64,000 nucleotides of DNA from Bacteroidia bacterium. GTDB taxonomy: Bacteria > Bacteroidota > Bacteroidia > Chitinophagales > UBA2359. The stretch covers positions 62,001-126,000 of the forward strand of contig JAUHXA010000008.1 in the NCBI GenBank assembly GCA_030427245.1, in the 5' to 3' direction. Shown piece after piece: positions 27,048 through 62,582 of this stretch; the stretch's first letter is position 1; each line of letters starts with the position of its first letter. Made by a program: the position numbers and the translations under genes. Under the pieces are notes generated by a model, which ran no database searches, was not told where the DNA came from, and saw only the letters and a list, made by a program, of their open reading frames with translations.

Positions 27048-27237
27048 TCCCAAATTTCTGGGGCAAGCTATTTTCCTAAACTCTTGGGAAAACTCTTGTT
27101 AAATTGCTTTAAGCAATGATTGGGAATGGTCTATCAATATAGGAAGTGTAACAATTTGCTTTATTCAAAGGATGAATGAAGGTAGGGAAGGTATAGGTAT
27201 TTAATTGTAAAAAATAAATTGTTAAATATTGAAACGT

Positions 27238-28806
27238 ATGAAATACAATTTTCGACTTTTTTTGAAATGGCAATTTTTAGGATTGCTGATTTGCTTGATA
27301 GCGAGCGAAGAAGTTTTCGCTTTTGTGGTGGATGCAGGGGAGGATAGAGTAGTTTGTATGGGAGGGAGTACGACTCTTGGAGGAAATCCAACTGCTCAAA
27401 ATCCCGATAATTCCAATATGACCTTTACTTATTCGTGGCAACCTACTGGTGATTTGAGCTGTTCAGACTGTCCTAATCCCGTTTTGTCAAATATCAATGA
27501 ATCAATGGATTACACCATAACAGTTGTTGATGAAGGAGGTTTTACTTGCACCGAGACTGTTCGAGTTGAAGCAACATCGGTTAGTGCCTTGGAAGTAAAT
27601 TTTTCGGGGGAACACAACCATACAATTGTCAAAGATGATGGCGAGGTGGAATACACTGCACCGCATTGGAGAGACAATTCGATACCTTTGGACGGAGATG
27701 CAGATGATATTCCTACAGACATCAAACATCCGATTTGCTATGAAAGTGGTAAAAGTTTGGTGGTTTCTGCAAAGTTTAAGGTTCACGAATTGACTGTTCC
27801 TTTTACGGCTAGAGTGCGAGCTGCCTGTTCGGATGGCATACATCTACCTATCAAAACTGCTGTCTATAACCTTGCTACCCAAACAATTGATTTGTCGAAT
27901 GTTGTTTCAACTCCTTTGGCTTCGAGTAAAGTGAATTATTACAATCCTTTTGAAATCCAATGGGAAATTTCTTTTGATGGTGGAAGCACTTGGTGTTCGG
28001 CAGGGGTGACTAAAAATCCCTTGTATGTGACTTTAGGGAAGCCGATACAGCCTTATACGCCTCCTACAATCCCTGGAGAAACCGCTTTTGAGGAAGTCAA
28101 GTTGTTTCATACCTTGGTACATCATGGATGTACAAATGCAAAAGATGTGACAAGTCTAACACAGGTATTGAACAATGTTTGGCAAGACTTTACGGATAGA
28201 GAGGTTCGTAGAGTAGATGGTACTCAAATGACTTATTATGCCAATTATCAATGTACGAGTACAACGACCAATACAATTTTAGAAACTGGGGATGGACAAT
28301 GTGGTTCTTGGTCTCGACTATTTTTAGATATATTAAAGGCACAAGGAATTGACTATCAGAATGAGTATATTATCATAGGAGTTGACCCTAACGTAACAAA
28401 TGGATCAAGAATTTTATTTATTAAAGAATGGATTTTTAATGCAAATGGAGGTACGAGTGGAGATAGCAATCTCCCCTTTTTAAATACTTTTTTAGGAGGA
28501 GATCCTCCTATCTCTAATAACACTTATAATTGGACTTATGCCGAAGTAAATGATATGGAAGGTGAGTCTGGACAAGGAACTCCAAATCCTGCATCTATAT
28601 TTGGAAATCATCAGATTGTACTGATAAATGGAACTTATTATGATCCTTCTTATGGACAAAATTATAGTAGTTTATTAGACTTTGATGTGATTGCTATTGA
28701 TGCTTTTGTACAATTAGTTATTATGGGCAACGAAAAATCATATTTGATTAAGAAAAATGAAAGCACTACTGGTCAAAATGTATTTGAAAATAAATATAAT
28801 TATTAG
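27238..28806 (+). CDS. Secreted protein with PKD-like domain and transglutaminase-like domain
   Basis: A 522-residue exported protein. A signal peptide (residues about 1-29, ending VFAF) precedes a PKD/Ig-like domain (about 30-115: VDAGED, YSWQP, LSCSDCPNPV, YTITVVD). The same domain opens the product of 29709-31493, at roughly 45% identity by eye. After a middle region of about 200 residues comes a segment like a transglutaminase/cysteine-protease core: Cys355 in DGQCGSWSRLF, His458 in FGNHQIVL and Asp469 in YYDPSYG, in the right order and with plausible spacing. Cross-linking or proteolysis of surface proteins is inferred. ATG 27238 is preferred over a TTG at 27229. No T9SS sorting domain was seen at the C-terminus. 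A lipoprotein gene follows after 17 bp. Confidence 0.75.
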   Translation: MKYNFRLFLKWQFLGLLICLIASEEVFAFVVDAGEDRVVCMGGSTTLGGNPTAQNPDNSNMTFTYSWQPTGDLSCSDCPNPVLSNINESMDYTITVVDEGGFTCTETVRVEATSVSALEVNFSGEHNHTIVKDDGEVEYTAPHWRDNSIPLDGDADDIPTDIKHPICYESGKSLVVSAKFKVHELTVPFTARVRAACSDGIHLPIKTAVYNLATQTIDLSNVVSTPLASSKVNYYNPFEIQWEISFDGGSTWCSAGVTKNPLYVTLGKPIQPYTPPTIPGETAFEEVKLFHTLVHHGCTNAKDVTSLTQVLNNVWQDFTDREVRRVDGTQMTYYANYQCTSTTTNTILETGDGQCGSWSRLFLDILKAQGIDYQNEYIIIGVDPNVTNGSRILFIKEWIFNANGGTSGDSNLPFLNTFLGGDPPISNNTYNWTYAEVNDMEGESGQGTPNPASIFGNHQIVLINGTYYDPSYGQNYSSLLDFDVIAIDAFVQLVIMGNEKSYLIKKNESTTGQNVFENKYNY

Positions 28807-29708: not shown

Positions 29709-31493
29709 ATGACCTTAAACTTATTTTTTGACAAAAGAGTCTTGGTGACTTTACTGCTCTTTTATTGGGGAATTTCCCTAAATGCTTTTAATGTAGATGC
29801 AGGGGAAGACCAAATTATCTGCAATGGCAATGTGGCGAGTATGGAGATTGGAGGAAGTCCTACTGCTTCGGGGAGTAGCGCACCTACTTATGTTTATTCA
29901 TGGAATCATGAAGAAACTTTGAGTTGTTCGGACTGCCCTAACCCTATAGCAAGCCCTACGGAAACAACTATTTATACTGTCACAGTGACAGATGGAGGTG
30001 GTTTTGTATGTACGGATGAAGTGGAAGTGGCTGTATTAACCATGGTTGTGCATCCTCAAAATAGTGATTTTGTAAGTGGTAAAGAAGGAAGGGTATTGAT
30101 TTCTACCTTTCAAGATGCCTCTTATTATACTGTTACTCCTTCTGCTATTGGTAATTTACCTGCACAACATGAAGGACTTGAAGTACCTTACTCTCCTCCC
30201 CTTAGTGACGGCAAATGCAATCGGGTAAAAATTACAGCACATCTAAACCCTGGAGCAATTAACAAGACAGTGTATTTTAGGTTGGTTTATCCAGATCCTG
30301 ACGACCCTTCTCCCTATGAAAAAGCAGGAACGTCAAATTTACCAGATTTAAATGGCGGAGATAATAAAGATACTAATATTAAACACGGACAACTAAATGG
30401 CAACGGTTCAATTGGAGCGGTAGTGACTGCAACTACTAGCCTTCATACAATTAACGGAAATCCAGTAGCAGCAGCAGAGGTAGAACTTACGATTACTGAT
30501 ACAAACGCAGGAGATAATTATCAAGTAGAAGCGGCTTTAGATCCAACTTTTAGTACCTGTTTTGGCAAAACAGCTATTTTGACAGCTTGGAAACGAGCGT
30601 ATGTGAGATTAGGAGGGATGATACCTAATAGTACTGCCTTATCAATGGCTTTTTCACATGACTCAAATAGCTCTGATGATTTTGTTTTTGTACAGGATAT
30701 TAGTGTTCTTAATATAGGAGATGACATAGATATTTTCTTTCCTGACCCTGCTAATAATTATACCATAAATAGTATTTCAAGAAAGATTATCGACATTCAA
30801 GCAAATAGGATTACGGTAGCGGATATTCCCCATAGTATTCCTTTACTTGGCGGTGTAAAAATTGCAGGAAGTACAGGTATCTATATGCCAATAAATTTCA
30901 ATACAGTTAATACCAATGGTTTAGAAGAAGCTTATGGGCAAAATACAAATGGAAGTGACGGAGGGTGTTTTATAGAATTTAAACTATCAAGTAAGCCCAT
31001 TTTTCATACTCCTAAAGTAGAATATTTAATAAATGATGCAGCTCGAGCACAGTATATGGGGGTATGGCGTGATGCAACCCCACATGATAAAGATAATGAA
31101 TTTTTAGTTATATCTGCATATAATTCAGAAATTAGTGGTCAAAAAAACTTGGGTGGAAGTGTGACGCTTCTTAATAACACTATTATTTTTCAAGATGCAA
31201 TTATACACACTCAAAACAATTTTAGTTTTAATTCCCCAACACATTACATAAATGCTTTGTCTGAAATAATTGCCCATGAATTTGGACATCATTTTGGTGT
31301 TGTTCCGAGTAGTTATTCTTATGTAGATCAACCACCAAATACTACTACTTATGTTGATAAGAATCATGAAGGAAATGATTATGGTATTATGACTTATGTT
31401 ATAGGAACTGCAACATCTCAGCTATTTAACGTTAAAACAGAGTTTAAGTTATCAACTATTACTCATATTAGAAAAGAAGTTGATCCTCAATAA
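29709..31493 (+). CDS. Secreted PKD-like domain protein with HExxH metallopeptidase motif
   Basis: A 594-residue exported protein: a signal peptide (about residues 1-25), then the same PKD-like domain as in the gene at 27238 (VDAGEDQIICNG, YSWNHEETLSCSDCPNP). A long strand-rich middle follows, then a zinc-peptidase core near the C-terminus. HEFGHHFG starts at residue 523, preceded by a helix (NALSEIIA), and a possible Met-turn (YGIMTYV) lies about 40 residues later, in the metzincin order. The usual third His of HExxHxxGxxH is not at the expected position (VVP follows), so the third ligand is unclear. It sits 36 bp after the first lipoprotein and 12 bp before the second. The role is unknown; processing of surface proteins is a guess. 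Confidence 0.72.
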   Translation: MTLNLFFDKRVLVTLLLFYWGISLNAFNVDAGEDQIICNGNVASMEIGGSPTASGSSAPTYVYSWNHEETLSCSDCPNPIASPTETTIYTVTVTDGGGFVCTDEVEVAVLTMVVHPQNSDFVSGKEGRVLISTFQDASYYTVTPSAIGNLPAQHEGLEVPYSPPLSDGKCNRVKITAHLNPGAINKTVYFRLVYPDPDDPSPYEKAGTSNLPDLNGGDNKDTNIKHGQLNGNGSIGAVVTATTSLHTINGNPVAAAEVELTITDTNAGDNYQVEAALDPTFSTCFGKTAILTAWKRAYVRLGGMIPNSTALSMAFSHDSNSSDDFVFVQDISVLNIGDDIDIFFPDPANNYTINSISRKIIDIQANRITVADIPHSIPLLGGVKIAGSTGIYMPINFNTVNTNGLEEAYGQNTNGSDGGCFIEFKLSSKPIFHTPKVEYLINDAARAQYMGVWRDATPHDKDNEFLVISAYNSEISGQKNLGGSVTLLNNTIIFQDAIIHTQNNFSFNSPTHYINALSEIIAHEFGHHFGVVPSSYSYVDQPPNTTTYVDKNHEGNDYGIMTYVIGTATSQLFNVKTEFKLSTITHIRKEVDPQ

Positions 31494-32239: not shown

Positions 32240-32593
32240 ATGAAAAAATATATATTCAAATACACAATTCTATTCCTTTCTTTTCCATTGCTTTTTTTAT
32301 GGACTCAGTCTGTTTTTGGTCAAAATGACCCTCCACCTGGTATAGACTTTACAACGAATACGGTTTGTAGGGGAGATTCAGATGGATTTATTGATATGGA
32401 CTTTAATGGGGGATGTCCGCCTTATACTATTTATTTAGATGATGGGAATGGTTATCAAGACCAACTTACCACCAATACTACTGATGGCATTTTCAATGAT
32501 TTAAAGTCAGGCAAATATGAAATTATTATAAAAGACAATAGTGAATGTACTCAGTACAGGACAAAACTATATTTGAAGCCAAAGACCTTATAG
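32240..32593 (+). pseudogene. 5' part of a T9SS adhesin gene, cut by an insertion element
   Basis: The frame opens with a signal peptide (about 28 residues, ending VFGQ) and one SprB-like repeat (GFIDMDFNGGCPPYTIYLDDG to SGKYEIIIKDNSECTQY). After codon Tyr106 (TAC 32555-32557) it runs into a non-coding element and stops. Removing 142 bp (the 138-bp element plus one GTAC copy) joins TQY directly to KGEC in the next piece and keeps frame. A second excision of 220 bp at 33211-33430 joins the third piece. The repaired gene (32240-36285 minus 362 bp) is exactly 1228 codons. SprB-type repeats occur in gliding-motility and surface adhesins of Bacteroidota. Confidence 0.82.
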
Positions 32594-32695
32594 GTTTAAC
32601 CTCTAAAAGTATGTACAGATTTGATAATCTGCTTAAATTACATAAACAAAAACCTATAAGGTTTGAGATTCATGCTCAATAAAACGTTTTGTCTT
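32558..32695. mobile_element. 138-bp MITE-like insertion with GTAC target duplication
   Basis: A non-coding element flanked by GTAC (32554-32557 and 32696-32699). Its ends are inverted repeats (AGGACAAAAC against GTTTTGTCTT, 9 of 10), and an inner perfect inverted repeat (ACCTTATAGGTTT at 32585-32597, AAACCTATAAGGT at 32650-32662) can form a large hairpin. Excision with one GTAC restores the adhesin frame. There is no transposase, so movement in trans is inferred. Confidence 0.8.
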
Positions 32696-33239
32696 GTACA
32701 AAGGTGAATGTAAATTATCTGGAATAGCAAATATAGGTGGTTCTTGGGTTGATGTGGGTTTTACTGGAATTACTCCTGCAATTATTGATGGGGAAAAGGG
32801 AAGCATTACAATAAGAATAACAGCTAAAGATGAACCTTACAATATAGTATGGACTGATGAAACAGGAGAAGTGATAGCTAACCAAACACTTACTGAAGCA
32901 GGAGAAACTTCCATATCTGGATTAGATCCTGGGGAATATTGTGCAGAAGTGACCAATGAAAATGGGTGTGTTAAAAAAATATGTACACCTATAGATTCCA
33001 GCCCTGGGAATTGTATTTGTTCTAACAATGAATTGTCCGATGCTTTAGAAGAAATGTATGCTACTGGAAATGGATTTACTGTTTTGGGAGCATCGGGAAT
33101 AGGTATTACAGACGCTTCTATAAGCCTCAATGAGACATTTTTGCCTTGTACTGGACCTTTCACCTATCTATGGGAAGAAGTAGGTGTTTTTGTGGAGGTT
33201 ATCAGCATATTCCTACGTTTCGGTAACTTCATTTGGTGA
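32694..33239 (+). pseudogene. Middle part of the interrupted T9SS adhesin gene
   Basis: Adhesin coding sequence between the two insertions, in frame from TAC 32697 to 33210. It encodes SprB-like repeat material (GSITIRITAKDEPYNIVWTDE, SGLDPGEYCAEVTNENGCVKK) and the start of another repeat (FLPCTGPFTYLWEE). It has no start signal of its own; the TTG at 32694 lies in the insertion end. The last 10 codons read into the second element. With both elements removed, EVISI joins FPLDIEISL downstream. Confidence 0.78.
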
Positions 33240-33427
33240 TAAAAAAAATAGTGTATAATTTTAAATATCAAGAATAAATGAGTTTAAAAATAAGATTATT
33301 CTATTTTTTAAAATTTATTCAAAAAACGTTATGTAATGAAATGGTCTTTCGATTGCGAGTTATTCAATAAAAGTCCATTTTTGTTATTGCAAAGTGCTCT
33401 GAAATGCAATATTACCGAAACGTAGGA
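33211..33427. mobile_element. 217-bp MITE-like insertion with TAT target duplication
   Basis: Perfect 16-bp terminal inverted repeats (TCCTACGTTTCGGTAA at 33211-33226 and its complement at 33412-33427) enclose AT-rich non-coding DNA. TAT flanks both sides (33208-33210 and 33428-33430). Deleting 220 bp restores the adhesin frame across the junction. Its ends are unrelated to those of the 32558 element, so it is a separate family. Confidence 0.85.
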
Positions 33428-33435
33428 TATTTCCT

Positions 33436-36285
33436 TTGGATATTGAAATAAGTCTAACACAGACTTTAGATGTGCCTGCTTCAAGTTCTTATGTGAATGG
33501 CATTACATCGGGAATCTATATATTGACAGTAACAGATGTTTGTGGTGACCAAGGGCAACTAACTGTATTTGTTCCAAATGGTATCTGTTTGGTGGATGGA
33601 AATGGTATTCCTGTGGGGGTGCAAGGAGCGGGTATTGTAGAATCTGCTTATTGTGAAGAAAATTCTGGTCATATATCCCCTTACATTCATGGTTACAACG
33701 AACCCATTACTTACCAGTGGAGCAATGGTGCAACTACTAAAAATCTTTATGATTTGGGAACAGGTAGTTACTGCCTTACTGTTACATCGGCAGATGACTG
33801 TACAGACAGTGAGTGTTTTGATATTTCTTCGGAAGGTGGCTTGCATATAGAATTGGATGCAAGAGATAATCATTGTGAGGGTTCGATTGACACAAACGGA
33901 GATGGTATTGAAGAATCTATTGAACACCTTGGATTTTTGAGGGTAGAAGTAGAAAAGAAAGGGGGAACATTTCCTGCAGGAGATATTATAATTAAGTGGA
34001 AAGATTCTGAAAATGGAAATACCGTAGCAACAGGTAATGAAATACATGATTTAGTAGAAGGAAGATATTGGGTAGAAGCAAGTATAGAAAATAGTAATTA
34101 TTGTAAGACTACCACATATTTTGATATAATTAAAACTTCACCTGAATTTCTTTATTGGACAAGTGCTTGTACTTTACCTTACGTTTGTGGTGCTGTTACT
34201 GGTCATATTGACGGCGAAAAAGATTATAAGTTTCCAAGTGGAAATTGTTCTAATGGACATGAGATTTGTATTTCATCAGGAGAAACAATCTCAGAAAATT
34301 TTACAGGAATAGAAGGAGATATAGTTGACTTGAATACAAATCCTACTGACTGTCAAGGCTTGCAACTTGAGTGTTATGTGCCAGGTCGAGCTATTCCTTA
34401 TTATGCTGATATTCCCAATAATCAAGTTATTGACTATATTGGGTGGTACACAGTAGAAGTATCTTATGATAATGATTTTATAAATGAGTTAGCAGTACAA
34501 GAGGATTATTGTTATTGGGTGCATTACTGTGAAGGGCCACAAGGGGAACCCATTTTACAGATTGATTGGGATATTGAACCGTTTGAGCACACTGGCTATC
34601 AAGATTATGTGGCTGCTGAAGATAGATGTTATGAACACTATTATTGTGAAGGACCAGCTGGTGATCGTACATATATGGGGTCTAAATTGATTCAAGTTGG
34701 AATATGTCCAGGAAAAAAAGTTCGAGACCTCCCCATCGAAATATCTTCCATCGCTTATACCAACACACTCCTCAATTACATAGGAAGCAACTCCATCTTC
34801 AACAATGCTTATTCTGTCAGCCAGTTTAACCCAAGCCTTGAACCTATATGGGAAGAATCTCTATCTGGAGCAGGAAATATTTGGGGAACAGACATCGTCA
34901 ATTTATACAATGGAAGTGTCTTGTCTGTTGGATATTTTACAGAAGACATTCGGACAGCAGATCATTGGTTGTATGCTTCGGAGGGAGCGGAAGATATTTT
35001 CTTTGTCAAACACGATGTGGAGGGGAATCGACAATGGCTCAAAACCATTGGTGGAATAGGTGCTGATAAATGCCAAAGTATTGCAGTAGATAAGCTACAA
35101 GGAGTTTGGCTTACAGGCAGTTTTACAGACGAAATGGATATTGAAAACATTCGACTTACAGGAACAGGGCAGGACACCTATTTTGCCAAATACAATGGCT
35201 TGGGTTATCTATTGTGGGCAAAAGCATTGGAGGGAACGGGAAGGAATACAGGACTTGCCATAGAAACCGACAATGAACACAATGCCTACTTATTGGGCAG
35301 CTTTCAAGACGACATTCAATTTGGCAGCAAAACTTCCCAAAACAACGACGATTATTCCGATATGTTTTTGGCGAAATACGATAAAGACGGCAACTTTATT
35401 TGGAGGAAACACGCAAGAAGCATTGCTACTCATTTTGAAAAAGCAGATATGGCTGTAGATAATGAGGGGAATATATTGATCTATGGTGCTTTTAGAAATG
35501 GATTTAGTTTTACTCCTTATTCCGAAGATGCCATCTATACTACAAGCTTCAAAGAGGATTTATTCTTGGTCAAATACAACTCCAATGGAGATTTATTGTG
35601 GACACGACAGTTGGGAAATACCGAAGATGCGATGCATTTAGGGGGAATAGAAACGGATAGATATGGGAATATTTTGGTCAATGGAGGTTTTGAAGGAAGA
35701 GCAGAGTTTGAAGGAGTCAGTTTGACGGCAGATGGTGAGAGCAGCATTTTTGTGGCGCAATACCGCAGTGACGGGCAGTTGGATTGGGTGAAAAAAGAAG
35801 GAGGAGCGAACAAAGATGCCGCTACTTGTATAGCAGTCAATCCTGTGCATGGAAATACCTACTATGCAGGGTTTCACTATGGCGATGCCCAAATTGAAGG
35901 AGAGGAGTTCACAAGTAGTCCGAATGTTCACAATGGTTTCATTGTAGAATTGGGCGGACAATCCAATCCCGCCAAAAACGAAGAAACAATTGAAGTCGTG
36001 GAAACGGTTTCCGAATCTGCCATGCTCGTTGAAAAGATTTATCCCAATCCCTTCAATAAAGTGATACAAGTCGATATTCAATCTCCTCGAAAAGAACAAA
36101 TCACTTTTGATGTGTACAATATGATGGGAGAAAAAGCCTTGTCTGAGAAACATCAACTGACAGAAGGCAAGAATACGATTTCTCTAACATTGAAGGAAAA
36201 AATGCCCAATGGAGTTTATTTATTGAAGATTATTGATGGCAAAAAGCAAGTGACTACTCATAAGATAGTGAAGACGAGTAAATAA
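33436..36285 (+). pseudogene. 3' part of the interrupted adhesin gene: SprB repeats, propeller and T9SS sorting domain
   Basis: The largest remaining piece, 949 codons, with no ATG near its 5' end; the TTG at 33436 is an internal Leu codon of the repaired gene. It encodes further SprB-like repeats (TYQWSNGATTKNLYDLGTGSYCLTVTSADDC-type), then a Cys-rich stretch with duplicated blocks (DYCYWVHYCEGPQG and DRCYEHYYCEGPAG). From about codon 470 it encodes SBBP-like propeller repeats (GNRQWLKTIGG, GNFIWRKHARS, GDLLWTRQLGN) and a type A sorting domain (KIYPNPFNK, GVYLLKI, ending KTSK). In the intact form it would be a T9SS-exported surface protein of 1227 residues. The first 1.3 kb is AT-rich; the propeller part is closer to the genome average. 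It is probably not translated now, though a downstream start cannot be excluded. Confidence 0.8.
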
Positions 36286-37380: not shown

Positions 37381-40300
37381 ATGCAGCGAATTATAGTAGC
37401 ATTGCTAACACTTGTTACCAGCGTTTATGTTTATGGCCAGGGAATTCCAACCACTTATCACAATGAATGGATAGATTTTGAACAGACCTATTATAAGGTA
37501 AAACTGAATCAAGCAGGACTGTATCGCATCAATCAATCCGTACTCCAATCAGCAGGAATTGAAGCCAAAGGCGCAGATTTGAAGCTGTATTACAAAGGCA
37601 AGGAAGTGCCTATGTATGTAAGCAATGAGGGAGATTTGGGCAGCAACGACTATATAGAATTTTTTGGAGAAGAAAACGATGGAGAATTTGATACCCAACT
37701 TTTTCAACAAGCGAGTTGGCAATTAACGCCCCTAAAAAGCCTATTTTCAGACACCTCGTCCTATTTCATCACCATAAAAAGTGGAGAAAACCACTTGCGG
37801 TATGCCTCAACAACAAACGACATCAGTAATCCCCCTGCAAAAGAAACGTCTTATTTACGTACAAGCGAAAACGTATTCAACAACATACATACGCCAGGGA
37901 AACGAATCAATGTAGGTGGATTGCCCACTTCTTTTGCGGATTTTGATGAAAACGAAGGATTTACAAGTATAAGCGTGCCTACTGGTGGCACAAGTTTCGA
38001 CCGAGAATTAGAGACTCCTTCTATCTTCTTCAATGGAGGTGAAGCCCTTATTCAAACCAAATTGGTGGGCAGCAACAACGATCCTTTTACCTTCAAAGAC
38101 CATCCCGTAGCCATTTCCTTCAATGGAACGGTCTATCACGAAACCAATTTTGAAGGCTTTGACAAGACAATAGAAACCTTCAATGTACCTTTGGGTGAGT
38201 TGACCAATCTCAAAACACCCGTTACTTTTACCGCTTTAGAAACAGAAAATCCCACGGCAACCAACAATTTTGTGGTGTCTTATATGCACATCACCTATCC
38301 AAGTAGCTTTGATTTTGAAGGAAATAGAAGTCGAGTTTTTGAAATAGACAACAATGGAAACAAATACATTGAAGTAAGCAATTTTGACGGCGGTTCACAG
38401 CCCATTCTTTACGACCTCACCAATCGCCAAAGAATCATTCCTATTGTAGAAAACGGAGTGTATAAATTTTTACTCAAACAAGTATTTGGCGGTGCTGCAA
38501 AACGAAAGCTCATCCTCGCCAATACTTCGAGTACTTTGGCCACAAGGCGTATCAATAAAGTCGCAACGGTAAATTTTACCGATTACAGTCAGCCCGAAAA
38601 CCAAGGAGATTACATCATCATTTCCCATCCTTTATTGATGCAAGGAAGTGTCAATCAAGTAGAACGCTACCGTCAATATCGGAGCAGTGTAGCAGGAAGA
38701 AACTACAAAGTAGTCTTGGTTAATATCGAAGAACTGTACGACCAATTTGCTTGGGGCATCCAAAAACATCCTCGATCCATTCGCAATTTTGTCAACTTTG
38801 CGGTTGACAAATGGGGCGGACAAGCCGAACAGTTGCTGCTTTTAGGCAAATCCATCGAATACCGAGTCGCTACTGTCACTCCATCGGCTTTTCGGGATTG
38901 TTTGATACCTACCTATGGTCATTCAGGCTCGGACGTATTGTTGACTGCCCGAACTCCTTTCACCTATACCAATCAGATAGCAGTCGGTCGGGTGCCTGCT
39001 CGAACAGCCGCTGAGGTCAAAATTTATTTGGACAAAATCATTGAATACGAGACCTTTCCAGAACCTTGTAGCGCCGAAGATATTTTTTGGAGAAAAGATG
39101 CTTTGCACATTGCAGGAGGAACAAACTTGGCAGAAGCAGCCGATTTTGTCGAGACCTTGTCGGTTTACAAAGACATTTTTGAAGACATTCACTATGGCGG
39201 CAAAGTCATTCACACCTACAACAAGTTTTCGGACGATCCAGTAGAAGAAGCCGACCTCAGCAATTTTATCAATCCAGGCTTGGGAGTCATCAATTTTGTG
39301 GGACACGCCTCTAACAATTCGCTGAACGTCAATATTGAAGCACTCGAACAGAAAAATTTTGGACGGTATCCCTTTATTTTTGCAAGCTCTTGTTTTGTGG
39401 GCGACATCCACAACTCCAACAGCATTGAAGTCGGAATGGCACATGAATTTGTCTTAGCTCCCAATCTCGGTTCAATCGGTTTTTTGGCAAGTAGTGCGGT
39501 AGGATTTCCCGTTTTGCTCGACCAATATGTACAAGGTTTGTATCAAAACTTTACCTTAGATCTTTACAATCAACCCATTGGATTGGCGATAAAAGACAAT
39601 ATTCAAGACCTTAGCCAACAATACAACGACCCAAACAGTCCCTTTTATACAGGCGTGAAATTCAACGCCATCTTTTTTACCCTTGTTGGCGACCCTGCTG
39701 TCGTTCTCAATCCTTTGCCGATTCCAGACTATCGGGTAGAAGAAGCGGGGATTTCCTTTGATCCTCCACAGATTACCACCGACTTGGATTCCTTTGCGGT
39801 GAACATCGTTCTTCAAAACTTGGGCAAAGCCATTGTCGACCCCATTCAAGTAGTGGTCAATCGCAGACTGCCCGATGGAACGGTCCAAACGGTTTTTAAT
39901 CAAAGTGTTGCTTCTCCCAAATATGCCGACACGCTGCAAGTCTATGTACAAACAGGTGAGGCAGAACTCATTGGTGGAAACAATATCTTTGAAGTCACCA
40001 TTGACGAACAAAATGGTGTGGAAGAACTTTGCGAAAGCAATAATGCGATTAGCATAGAAACGACCATCTTTTCGAATCAAATTATCCCGATTTTTCCCTG
40101 TGAATTTGCCATTGTTTCAGAACCCAACGTGACATTGAAAGCTTCAACAGGACAACCCATTTTGGATGCTCACGACTATGATTTTCAAATAGATACCACA
40201 GCTTTGTTCAACAGCCCTTTGCTGCAATCGGCAAGAATCAACAGTGGTGCAGGAGTCATAGAGTGGCAGCCTTCAATGAACTATCAAAACAACAGGGTCT

Positions 40301-42489
40301 ATTATTGGAGAAGCAGTCAAGTGCCAGAAGATGTGGACGAAATCCCTTCTTGGGCGGTCAGTTCCTTTGTTTTTGAAGCCAACGGCACCAATGGTTGGAA
40401 TCAGTCACACTATTACCAATTCGGACGCAACACTTTCAACGATTTGTTGCTGGAAGAAGAAAGCCGAAAATTCAACTACGGTTTTGTGTCAAACAATGTG
40501 AAAGTCGTCAACAATCGGATGCAGCCCGACAATATTTCTATTGAACTCAACGGACAAATCCTACACGATTTGAATACCTCTCCAAGTACTCGTGCAACCT
40601 GTTTGGAGGTGGGCGCATGTGCGGGTGGCTTAGGCTTTGTGGTTTTCAAACCCCAACCCATCTTAGAACCGATTGTATCTCCTGCAAGCGAAAGAAGCGG
40701 CACACTCGACTGTGGAGGAACGGGCAAATACGGAAACAATCACTGTGAATTGAATGATATGTATGCCATCGAATTCAGTACGGTGGACAACAACCGCCTG
40801 CAAAACATGCAAACGTTTATGAGTGAAACCATTGAGGATGGTGATTACGTGTTGATTTACAGCCTGATGAATCACCACCTTTCCAATCCTTTGCCCAATG
40901 AAGCGATTTTTCCATACATCAATTTTATCGAAGATTTCATGCAAAACATGGGCTTGGCAACTTTGGACGGCCTCAACAACAACCGAGCCTTTGTTGCTTT
41001 TGGACGAAAAGGCGTACCCGAATATCCTGCAAGTATTCAACTGAGTGCAGGAAACTTGAGTGAAGACAATCTGGCAGTGGATTTGGAAGTAGATGTTCGA
41101 GCCGACAATGGCAGTTTATCCTCTCCTCCTATTGGCCCTGCAAAAAGCTGGCAAACGCTCAATTGGGCAAAAGACAATTTGCCGACGGATAACACCAACT
41201 TGCGGGTTTATGGGATTGGCGAACAAGGTAGTGAATTGATAAATGGCAATTTAGCAGTAGGGGAGGTGGACATCAGCAGCATTGACGCTGCAAAATACCC
41301 TTTCCTTCGATTGGAACTGAAATCGAGCGATGAGGAAGAACGCACCCCTCCGCAATTGGATTTTTGGAAAGTATATTTTGAAGGGGCAGGAGAATTGGCA
41401 TTGAACCTTCAATCGGCGTTTAGCTTTGAATCGGACACCCTTTTTGAAGGACAAACTGCAAAGGTTTCTTTTGCGTTTACCAATGCAGGCGATGTGGATA
41501 TGGACAGCGTTTTGGTTCATTACACGTTGGTCAATCGCAACAACCAGAGTACCTTGGCTCATGCTCCTCGGTACAAGCCCTTGGCAGTGGGTGAAAGCTA
41601 TACGGCTGATTTTTCTTTTGAAACCAATGGAATGGAAGGCAATAACATTTTGCTTATTCAACTCAATCCGAATGGTGACCAATTGGAAAAGCGAGACTTC
41701 AACAATGTTTTGGTAATTCCGTTTACGGTCATTTCCGATAAAATAAATCCAATCGTGGATGTGACTTATGATGGGCGACACATTATGGATGGCGACATCG
41801 TTTCGGCAGCACCCAATATTTTGATTCGGGTCAAAGACGACAACCCATTTTTTGCGCTCAACGATACGTCTGACTACGAAATCATCCTGACTTATCCCGA
41901 CGACAATGGCAATCCCATCACTGAACGCACGATTCCATTCAGCGATCCTATGGTCACTTTTCGTCCTGCTACTCAATTACAAGCTGCTGCAGGTAACAAT
42001 ACTTCCGAAATAGAATTGCAGCCCAATTTCACCCAAAATGGTACTTATGAAATTGCCATTGATGCGAAAGACCGAAGCGGCAATGATTTTGCGAGAAGAG
42101 CCTACAAAGGTAGTTTTGAAGTGGTGACAGAATCTATGATTTCCAATGTGTTGAACTATCCCAATCCTTTCACTACTTCTACCCGTTTTTTACTGACCAT
42201 CACAGGTTCGGAAGTACCCGAATACCTCAAAATCCAAATCATGACGGTATCGGGTAAGGTCGTGCGAGAAATTACACAAGCGGAATTGGGCGCACTGCAC
42301 ATTGGCGAAAATCTTACAGAATTTGCTTGGGATGGTACGGACGAGTTTGGAGACAAATTGGCGAATGGCGTTTATTTGTATCGAGTTGTCAGTCGCCTCA
42401 ATGGACAGGCAATCGAACAGTTAGAAACCAATGAATTGGTGGATGGTACGTTTAAGAATGGCTGGGGAAAGATGTATTTGATGCGTTGA
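37381..42489 (+). CDS. porU2: PorU2-like C25 (gingipain family) peptidase, 1702 residues
   Basis: A large secreted peptidase of the C25 family, of the type annotated as putative T9SS sortase PorU2. The signal peptide (about residues 1-20, ending VYGQ) is followed by the N-terminal domain (YHNEWIDFEQTYYKVKL), like that in the paralogue at 12345-15431. The caspase-like C25 domain (about 420-790) has the catalytic dyad His642 (NFVGHASNN) and Cys671 (FASSCFVGD). Long Ig-like/CARDB regions with paired Cys come next, then a FlgD-like Ig plus C-terminal sorting region (NYPNPFTTSTRF, DGTDEFGDKLANGVYLYRV). T9SS sortases cleave the sorting domain from cargo and attach the protein to A-LPS; PorU2's exact role is less defined. 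It has its own promoter and a terminator and is not in an operon. Confidence 0.88.
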   Translation: MQRIIVALLTLVTSVYVYGQGIPTTYHNEWIDFEQTYYKVKLNQAGLYRINQSVLQSAGIEAKGADLKLYYKGKEVPMYVSNEGDLGSNDYIEFFGEENDGEFDTQLFQQASWQLTPLKSLFSDTSSYFITIKSGENHLRYASTTNDISNPPAKETSYLRTSENVFNNIHTPGKRINVGGLPTSFADFDENEGFTSISVPTGGTSFDRELETPSIFFNGGEALIQTKLVGSNNDPFTFKDHPVAISFNGTVYHETNFEGFDKTIETFNVPLGELTNLKTPVTFTALETENPTATNNFVVSYMHITYPSSFDFEGNRSRVFEIDNNGNKYIEVSNFDGGSQPILYDLTNRQRIIPIVENGVYKFLLKQVFGGAAKRKLILANTSSTLATRRINKVATVNFTDYSQPENQGDYIIISHPLLMQGSVNQVERYRQYRSSVAGRNYKVVLVNIEELYDQFAWGIQKHPRSIRNFVNFAVDKWGGQAEQLLLLGKSIEYRVATVTPSAFRDCLIPTYGHSGSDVLLTARTPFTYTNQIAVGRVPARTAAEVKIYLDKIIEYETFPEPCSAEDIFWRKDALHIAGGTNLAEAADFVETLSVYKDIFEDIHYGGKVIHTYNKFSDDPVEEADLSNFINPGLGVINFVGHASNNSLNVNIEALEQKNFGRYPFIFASSCFVGDIHNSNSIEVGMAHEFVLAPNLGSIGFLASSAVGFPVLLDQYVQGLYQNFTLDLYNQPIGLAIKDNIQDLSQQYNDPNSPFYTGVKFNAIFFTLVGDPAVVLNPLPIPDYRVEEAGISFDPPQITTDLDSFAVNIVLQNLGKAIVDPIQVVVNRRLPDGTVQTVFNQSVASPKYADTLQVYVQTGEAELIGGNNIFEVTIDEQNGVEELCESNNAISIETTIFSNQIIPIFPCEFAIVSEPNVTLKASTGQPILDAHDYDFQIDTTALFNSPLLQSARINSGAGVIEWQPSMNYQNNRVYYWRSSQVPEDVDEIPSWAVSSFVFEANGTNGWNQSHYYQFGRNTFNDLLLEEESRKFNYGFVSNNVKVVNNRMQPDNISIELNGQILHDLNTSPSTRATCLEVGACAGGLGFVVFKPQPILEPIVSPASERSGTLDCGGTGKYGNNHCELNDMYAIEFSTVDNNRLQNMQTFMSETIEDGDYVLIYSLMNHHLSNPLPNEAIFPYINFIEDFMQNMGLATLDGLNNNRAFVAFGRKGVPEYPASIQLSAGNLSEDNLAVDLEVDVRADNGSLSSPPIGPAKSWQTLNWAKDNLPTDNTNLRVYGIGEQGSELINGNLAVGEVDISSIDAAKYPFLRLELKSSDEEERTPPQLDFWKVYFEGAGELALNLQSAFSFESDTLFEGQTAKVSFAFTNAGDVDMDSVLVHYTLVNRNNQSTLAHAPRYKPLAVGESYTADFSFETNGMEGNNILLIQLNPNGDQLEKRDFNNVLVIPFTVISDKINPIVDVTYDGRHIMDGDIVSAAPNILIRVKDDNPFFALNDTSDYEIILTYPDDNGNPITERTIPFSDPMVTFRPATQLQAAAGNNTSEIELQPNFTQNGTYEIAIDAKDRSGNDFARRAYKGSFEVVTESMISNVLNYPNPFTTSTRFLLTITGSEVPEYLKIQIMTVSGKVVREITQAELGALHIGENLTEFAWDGTDEFGDKLANGVYLYRVVSRLNGQAIEQLETNELVDGTFKNGWGKMYLMR

Positions 42490-61460: not shown

Positions 61461-62582
61461 TCAATTGACAATCCGTTTCCCATTGCTATACAGTACGATT
61501 TGTGCATGTTTGAAGCCTGCGCCTTTCATATCCTTCAATGCTGTCAAGGCAGCATTGTAATCGTAAAACTGAGTCGCTAAGATGTATTGTTTGATACCTC
61601 TTGGGTTTTCTTCAATGTCAATTTTGCCTACTCGCTTGAAGTCAGGATTTCCCAAATCCAAGGATTGATAGGCATTGTATAGTTGTACTTTGTATATCAA
61701 ACTGGAAGATTCTTCCTTAGACGATTGAGCCGTATGTCCCATGTCCGTCCTTTTGATTTTGTTCGCTTGTGATAAAGCAACACCTTCCAGCTTGGATTTG
61801 TATTCTTTAAATGCTCTGTAAATAGCCGATGCGATATAGGTTTGACCTTGATCCGACTTCAAAAACGCTTCTTCGGACGAATTGGTCAAAAAACCTGCCT
61901 CGACCAATACACTCGGCATTCCTGTTTTGTAAAGCACCAAGAAACTTTCTTGTTTCACTCCTCGACTGTTTCGTTTGGCTTTGTGTTTGAACTCTTTCTC
62001 AATGGAAGAAGCAAAGTCAATACTTTGGTTCAAAAAAGCATTTTGATACAAAGAAAAAACAATATTACTCTCATAATCGTCCAAGTTGAAGCCATCGTAG
62101 TGATGCTCGTAGTTGTTTTCGAGCAAAATTACTGAATTTTCACGCCTCGATACATCTAAATTTTCAGCCGATTTATCCAAACCCATAATATAGGTTTCGG
62201 TACCGTGAACATTCGTATGGTTTTTAGCAGCATTGCAGTGAATCGAAATAAACAAGTCTGCTTGATTGCGATTCGCTATTGCAGCCCTTTCGTGCAACTC
62301 TATGAAAGTGTCCGTCTTTCGAGTATAAATGACTTTGACCCCTTCAATGTTTTGCTCAATGTAACTTCCCAACTTTAAGGCAATTTTTAACGCAATGTCT
62401 TTTTCTTGGCTGTGTTTACCCAAACAACCTGTGTCTTTTCCACCGTGCCCAGCATCAATAACCACTGTTTTGACGGTATAAAATGGAACATTCAAAAAGG
62501 CCTTAACTCGTCCCGATACTTCGGGAATTATTGACAAACACACTAACAGAACAATTGAACTAAGTAACAGTTTATTTTTCAT
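61461..62582 (-). CDS. N-acetylmuramoyl-L-alanine amidase (Amidase_3)
   Basis: A 373-residue periplasmic zinc amidase that cleaves the amide bond between MurNAc and the stem peptide. The signal/anchor helix (about residues 5-24) is followed by the Amidase_3 domain with zinc ligands and catalytic Glu in VVIDAGHGGKDTG, the ELHERAAIANR block, FISIHCNAA, and the late VLVEAGFLTN. The C-terminal portion (about 300-373, KVQLYNAYQSLDL to ALKDMKGAGFKHAQIVLY) resembles a SPOR-like peptidoglycan-binding domain. It is divergent from the LptD gene across a 252-bp promoter region and upstream of the MCE gene. Confidence 0.92.
   Translation of the reverse strand: MKNKLLLSSIVLLVCLSIIPEVSGRVKAFLNVPFYTVKTVVIDAGHGGKDTGCLGKHSQEKDIALKIALKLGSYIEQNIEGVKVIYTRKTDTFIELHERAAIANRNQADLFISIHCNAAKNHTNVHGTETYIMGLDKSAENLDVSRRENSVILLENNYEHHYDGFNLDDYESNIVFSLYQNAFLNQSIDFASSIEKEFKHKAKRNSRGVKQESFLVLYKTGMPSVLVEAGFLTNSSEEAFLKSDQGQTYIASAIYRAFKEYKSKLEGVALSQANKIKRTDMGHTAQSSKEESSSLIYKVQLYNAYQSLDLGNPDFKRVGKIDIEENPRGIKQYILATQFYDYNAALTALKDMKGAGFKHAQIVLYSNGKRIVN

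Follow-up and report, generated by a model that had tools for sequence, protein, structure and literature searches.

The gene considered here lies in a window of 64,000 nucleotides (positions 62,001 to 126,000 of contig JAUHXA010000008.1, Bacteroidia bacterium assembly GCA_030427245.1), and it raises the question of whether a surface-protein gene that is interrupted twice has been lost or is held in an off state from which it could be recovered. The gene is 3.66 kb long and lies on the forward strand. It is interrupted by a pair of short, non-autonomous transposons (miniature inverted-repeat transposable elements, MITEs), so that it is read as three forward-strand open reading frames (ORFs) at window positions 32240-32593, 32694-33239, and 33436-36285, in line with the three coding pieces of a preliminary description of the sequence. 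That description left two outcomes standing, a fresh inactivation or a reversible switch. We regard it as very probable that the first is correct, and that members of two unrelated MITE families, moved by IS4-like and IS1634-like transposases, inserted separately and recently into a gene for a surface protein secreted by the type IX secretion system (T9SS) and inactivated it.

The first element occupies positions 32550 to 32703 on the forward strand and is 154 bp long. It is flanked by two direct copies of the 9-bp target duplication GTGAATGTA (32541-32549 and 32704-32712), so that the insertion added 163 bp in all, and its ends are imperfect inverted repeats of 18 bp, CTCAGTACAGGACAAAAC on the left and, read on the other strand, CTTTGTACAAGACAAAAC on the right, with 15 of 18 positions matching by eye. 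The left 20 bp are shared without a mismatch with the left end of a longer insertion sequence (IS) in the same genome, and all six frames of the element contain stops, so no transposase is encoded. Including itself, element 1 has 28 matches in its own genome, and at four places, this one among them, the sequence is identical over all 154 bp. Target duplications were scored in the 15 copies for which both ends could be placed, the other 13 matches being left unscored, and exact 9-bp duplications flank 10 of the 15, each with a different sequence. An element shorter than 300 bp, with terminal inverted repeats, the ends of a resident IS, no transposase, and many copies bounded by target duplications is a MITE. 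The preliminary description had drawn this element as 142 bp (32558-32699), a boundary that is ruled out by the 9-bp repeats and by the ends of the other copies.

The second element, also on the forward strand, spans 33212 to 33426 (215 bp) and carries perfect 15-bp terminal inverted repeats, CCTACGTTTCGGTAA. Direct repeats of ATATT flank it at 33207-33211 and 33427-33431, which brings the inserted DNA to the 220 bp previously proposed. The genome holds four full copies of element 2, this one included, and one partial copy at a contig end. All four full copies are bounded by duplications of 5-6 bp (ATATT, TTTTA, TTAACA, and TTTGAG), and the copy in this gene agrees with its three full sisters at 213 of 216 alignment columns. 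Stops are present in all six frames, no transposase is encoded, and with its short length, inverted repeats, and several duplicated insertion sites, element 2 is likewise a MITE. The earlier proposal that two different elements split the gene is thus borne out for both by inverted repeats, target duplications, and further copies in the genome that are the same or nearly the same in sequence.

Repeats of this kind can mislead an assembler, and the interrupted gene could in principle be a product of unrelated reads joined through the repeated elements. Contigs of this assembly end 122-126 bases into the resident IS, and the word length used was thus perhaps about 127; identical repeats of 154 bp are longer than that, and a misjoin through element 1 is therefore conceivable. 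One copy of element 1 (L004) lacks a target duplication, and it may itself be a misjoin or a recombinant. At the locus in question, however, the duplications match across both elements and the reading frame continues beyond them, a combination that a false join is unlikely to give, and the copy of element 2 is distinct in sequence from its three full sisters. An assembly artefact is on this evidence extremely unlikely.

With the elements delimited, the coding pieces can be placed as well. The 5' piece runs from 32240 to 32549, and its reading frame meets a stop at 32593, within element 1. With element 1 and one duplication taken out, the middle piece (32713-33211) continues in the frame of the first, and the 3' piece extends from 33432 to 36285, all on the forward strand. 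Each of the three ORFs has a possible start codon, as would be expected if these were true separate genes with conserved boundaries. The start of the second ORF (32694) nevertheless falls within element 1, and the third ORF starts (33436) five bases beyond the right-hand duplication of element 2. Furthermore, a signal peptide is seen by eye in the first piece only, a sorting tail scores above its cut-off in the third piece only, matches to proteins of other genomes cross the first junction, and the DNA between the pieces is multicopy and bounded by target duplications. We consider three separate genes next to impossible, and read the pieces as parts of one inactivated gene.

Removal of each element together with one copy of its duplication leaves 3663 bases, or 1220 codons and a stop, with no internal stop. 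When all nine frame combinations were tried, only the join at the two empty sites stayed open to the end, and the other eight held between 14 and 91 stops. The preliminary description had also reported a restored frame, and the part of that claim that stands is that both removals keep the frame. Its 142-bp version of element 1 would lengthen the protein by seven residues where the first two pieces meet and stays open because 142 and 163 have the same remainder modulo 3; its product length of 1228 codons counted the stop codon, and precise removal gives 1220 amino acids. In other genomes, four repeat proteins (L117, L119, L123, and L124) have blastp matches that run across the first junction, and each scores the true empty site higher than the 142-bp version, by 2.7-5.8 bits (70.1 against 66.6, 69.3 against 65.1, 62.4 against 56.6, and 57.8 against 55.1 for the four best matches). 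This is modest support for the corrected junction, as seven additional residues would lower most scores in any case.

It had been argued that two frame-preserving restorations are unlikely by chance. The argument is weak, as frame alone would give this outcome once in nine trials, and a restored frame is the ordinary outcome when an element that duplicates its target inserts into an open frame, with no special explanation needed. The lesson of this locus is that a restored reading frame is by itself no evidence for a switch. If the gene were switched, it would be a two-lock contingency locus, in which both MITEs leave and re-enter through their parent transposases acting in trans, precise excision occurs at useful rates, and the population is a mixture of expressing and silent cells. 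The frame that is intact without the elements and the presence in the same genome of an IS with the end of element 1 are both compatible with such a system. A model for it would be IS492 of Pseudoalteromonas atlantica, which reportedly switches a surface-polysaccharide gene. As there, the elements here sit inside a surface-related gene whose function precise loss would restore.

Precise excision of insertion sequences is indeed known elsewhere, for IS492 (literature cited in PMC11208160) and, with an excision enhancer protein, for IS629 (PMC9330008). IS492, however, is an autonomous element of the IS110 kind with a different mechanism (PMC11208160) and with precise excision reported at high frequency, whereas the two elements in this gene are non-autonomous. 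Both would have to leave precisely, each taking one duplication copy with it. Element 1 also interrupts two further frames in its own genome, one at C84:92431-92584 (L008), where 336 codons at the empty site become 125 and 227, and one at C81:69654-69807 (L009), where 168 codons are reduced to stretches of at most 56. These two and the present gene (L001) are the three copies of 15 whose removal restores a frame of at least 150 codons, and none of the other 12 does so. As other frames are broken and most copies restore no long frame, nothing about element 1 is special to this gene. In addition, no relative close enough to show the empty site was found. Excised forms would not be visible in a single assembly, so the switching reading is unsupported rather than disproved, and we consider it very unlikely.

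Inactivation, by comparison, explains the locus as an ordinary event in a genome whose MITEs have recently been active. The identity of element 1 to three sister copies and the near-identity of element 2 to its own, together with the lack of any further stop in the three coding pieces, suggest that the insertions were recent, in agreement with the earlier suggestion that the gene was freshly inactivated. The two insertions were most likely independent. With about 20 young copies in 7.58 Mb, we roughly estimate a 5-10% chance that two would fall within one gene length of 3.7 kb. A second insertion becomes likelier once the first has lifted constraint, and no selection is needed to place two in one gene.

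The source of element 1 can be approached through the larger IS in the same genome, which shares with it both the end sequence and the length of the duplication. Seven left ends and six right ends of this IS (the right ends being a CTAAG variant) were identified, all of them at contig ends, and four left-right pairs have a common 9-bp flank, which shows that left and right ends belong to a single IS, the middle of which the assembly lacks. In the wider genome collection, the 18-base end CTCAGTACAGGACAAAAC was found at 15 loci (L070-L084), although by a rough estimate a few chance hits would be expected for 18 bases in so much DNA. Two of these loci carry an IS bounded by CTCAGTACAGGACAAAAC with an exact 9-bp duplication, one of 1141 bp in Hydrococcus sp. 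Prado102 (L080) and one of 1160 bp in Synechococcaceae cyanobacterium SM1_2_3 (L081). The transposase of the former is assigned to the IS4 family (277.7 bits, cut-off 152) and also matches PF01609 (44 bits, cut-off 23). The 9-bp duplications of element 1 and of the resident IS fall within the range of the IS4 family in Table 1 of PMC2266710, 7-13 bp across its subgroups or roughly one turn of the helix, and the parent of element 1 probably belongs to this family. Ten of the 15 loci are cyanobacterial, two of these from one genome, and two are from Competibacter-type bacteria; that several of the loci bound an IS hints at spread of an IS4-like element across phyla.

For element 2, a related end, CTTATGTTTCGGTAACTTGATT, was found at four identical contig ends of the same genome. 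The 41-residue C-terminal peptide encoded beside it had three hits outside its own genome. One of these, in a relative (L102), scored 71 against a best value of 46 from 1000 shuffles, and the matched protein is an IS1634 family transposase (172.9 bits, cut-off 100) with one stop inside the matched region. The other two (L103 and L104) were weak, did not resemble transposases by eye, and were taken as chance. The ends of element 2, CCTACGTT, fit the pattern C-----YT, and the duplications seen on the MITE copies are 5-6 bp long and AT-rich, as tabulated for IS1634. Judged from these sequence features, the parent of element 2 probably belongs to the IS1634 family.

In the mechanism that we propose, the parent transposases would act in trans on the MITE ends and join each element to target DNA that had been cut in a staggered fashion, and repair of the resulting gaps would then give the direct repeats. 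An IS4-family-like transposase that duplicates 9 bp of target would have moved element 1, and element 2 would most likely have been moved by an IS1634-family-like one with a duplication of 5-6 bp. Table 1 of PMC2266710 lists the IS10 subgroup with CT ends, 9-bp direct repeats, and a length of 1200-1350 bp. Element 1 resembles this group in its CT ends and 9-bp repeats, and the Hydrococcus IS, whose first 18 bp on the left are the same, encodes an IS4 transposase; by contrast, element 1 is only 154 bp and lacks a transposase, and the Hydrococcus IS, at 1141 bp, falls short of the listed range. IS1634 is listed there with C-----YT ends and 5-6-bp direct repeats. Element 2 agrees with it in both respects, its repeats being mostly AT-rich, and its partner peptide resembles an IS1634 transposase, while at 215 bp, with no transposase and with a parent read at one end only, it differs from a complete IS1634 element. 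A close parallel for both is MITECca01 of Cardinium, a MITE derived from an IS982-family element (PMC9769881), which is also short and non-autonomous, carries the ends of its parental IS, has many copies per genome, and occasionally inactivates genes. The elements described here differ from it in being IS4-like and IS1634-like and in that two families have entered one gene. A limited literature search turned up no publication title naming these exact elements, and both families are probably undescribed, although their kind is well known. They add two clean MITE families, each delimited exactly and assigned a likely parent, and the locus is a clear example of how MITE insertion can cost a genome a surface-protein gene.

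Several observations count against this account and must be weighed with it. Five of the 15 scored copies of element 1 (L004, L005, L016, L017, and L019) have no exact duplication, two of them (L017 and L019) being off by a single base by eye. The interior of the resident IS could not be located in the assembly, where the left-end sequence of this IS occurs at seven places that are all contig ends, and the partner of element 2 is seen at one end only, at its four contig ends; because the interiors are missing, neither parent transposase could be read whole. Two loci outside the genome (L073 and L074) hold similar insertion sequences of 1142 and 1138 bp with both ends and no matching duplication. 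The C-terminal 40 residues of the resident IS score 41 against the Hydrococcus transposase, below the best of 1000 shuffles (43), so the family of the parent of element 1 rests on its ends and duplication length. The scan with two mismatches that revealed CTTATGTTTCGGTAACTTGATT gave 28 hits against 40 in the control, and the alignment of CTTATGTTTCGGTAACTTGATT with element 2 has no shuffle control; the case for the partner therefore rests on the four contig ends, the end alignment, and the peptide. Among the matches listed for a query of the 377-residue repeat region, none spans the second junction, which thus depends on its direct repeats, the sister copies, and the frame. Finally, among the matches listed from searches of 119 genomes and of 396 genomes, and in a search of genome contigs, none was to an orthologue of the whole protein. 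The comparison with an uninterrupted allele that the preliminary description had called for accordingly yielded none, and there is no empty site to set beside the filled one.

The joined product looks like a T9SS-secreted surface protein. The third piece contains an SBBP beta-propeller (PF06739, 29.2 bits, cut-off 20.5) downstream of its repeat head, and it ends in a type A T9SS sorting domain that is above the cut-offs of both PF18962 (47.6 bits, cut-off 27) and TIGR04183 (54.1 bits, cut-off 23), as had been predicted for it. SprB-like repeats had been attributed to all three pieces. In the first, the SprB repeat PF13573 does exceed its Pfam cut-off (28.9 bits, cut-off 28), but no SprB repeat does so in the second or third, and the repeat kinship of the first two pieces and the head of the third is drawn from their weak resemblance to repeat proteins in other genomes. 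All Pfam matches of the second piece were below threshold (DUF3244 at 19.6 bits, cut-off 25; Por_Secre_tail at 16.7, cut-off 27). The proposed signal peptide is placed at the start of the first piece as judged by eye, and the name adhesin for the broken protein is a guess.

Searches with the joined protein gave matches in 85 of 119 genomes, its own included. Among the matches listed outside its own genome, only the propeller and tail were covered, at 25-38% identity. The 377-residue repeat region matched in 317 of 396 genomes, again with its own included, and the matches listed were weak and mostly to long repeat proteins. A search with residues 1-751 against genome contigs, which detects close relatives only and may omit the genome itself, returned 23 stretches, none of which was confirmed. 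The MITE DNA gave only short, weak matches outside its own genome, for element 1 in two and for element 2 in nine of 118 others.

Element 1 also contains an internal inverted repeat, with its left arm AGACCTTATAGGTTT at 32583-32597 on the forward strand (perfect over 13 bp, 32585-32597) and its right arm, AAACCTTATAGGTTT in minus-strand reading, at 32650-32664 (perfect part 32650-32662). This inner repeat hardly varies even among old copies with decayed ends, an observation biased by the fact that some copies were found through it. The 15-mer AAACCTTATAGGTTT is present in six of 60 genomes, with 37 occurrences in its own genome, 23 in relative G011, and 14 in relative G018, against 1, 0, and 0 for the reversed control. 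In the two relatives, 28 of the 37 sites form tight inverted pairs spaced by 3-4 bases. Stretches around the sites were read in these relatives (L130-L142) and in the genome itself (L143-L147), and transposon ends were found near none of the 13 sites read in the relatives. This 15-mer may represent a terminator-like or other functional hairpin that was captured by the MITE.

Neither element contains a full match to the promoter TTTG-N17-21-TANNTTTG; -7-like sites by the same consensus occur at three positions near element 1, one of them outside the element, and at none in element 2. No Rfam family reached threshold between 30000 and 38000. In the alignment of the internal stem, 91.2% of cells are paired, and no pair is changed on both sides, so that the alignment is uninformative for covariation. 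As RNA, the stretch from 32570 to 32715, comprising the right part of element 1 and its border, is predicted to fold at -31.9 kcal/mol (z -4.03), which beats 200 of 200 shuffles, and the three other stretches folded for comparison are unremarkable.

Two secreted-looking proteins encoded nearby, at 27229-28806 and 29709-31493, begin similarly, with VDAGED followed by a PTA motif as judged by eye; one has a transglutaminase-like match and the other reprolysin-like (metallopeptidase) matches, all of them weak and below cut-off. Downstream, the next long gene (37381-42489) encodes a protein of 1702 amino acids with a peptidase C25 domain of the gingipain type (180.9 bits, cut-off 23).

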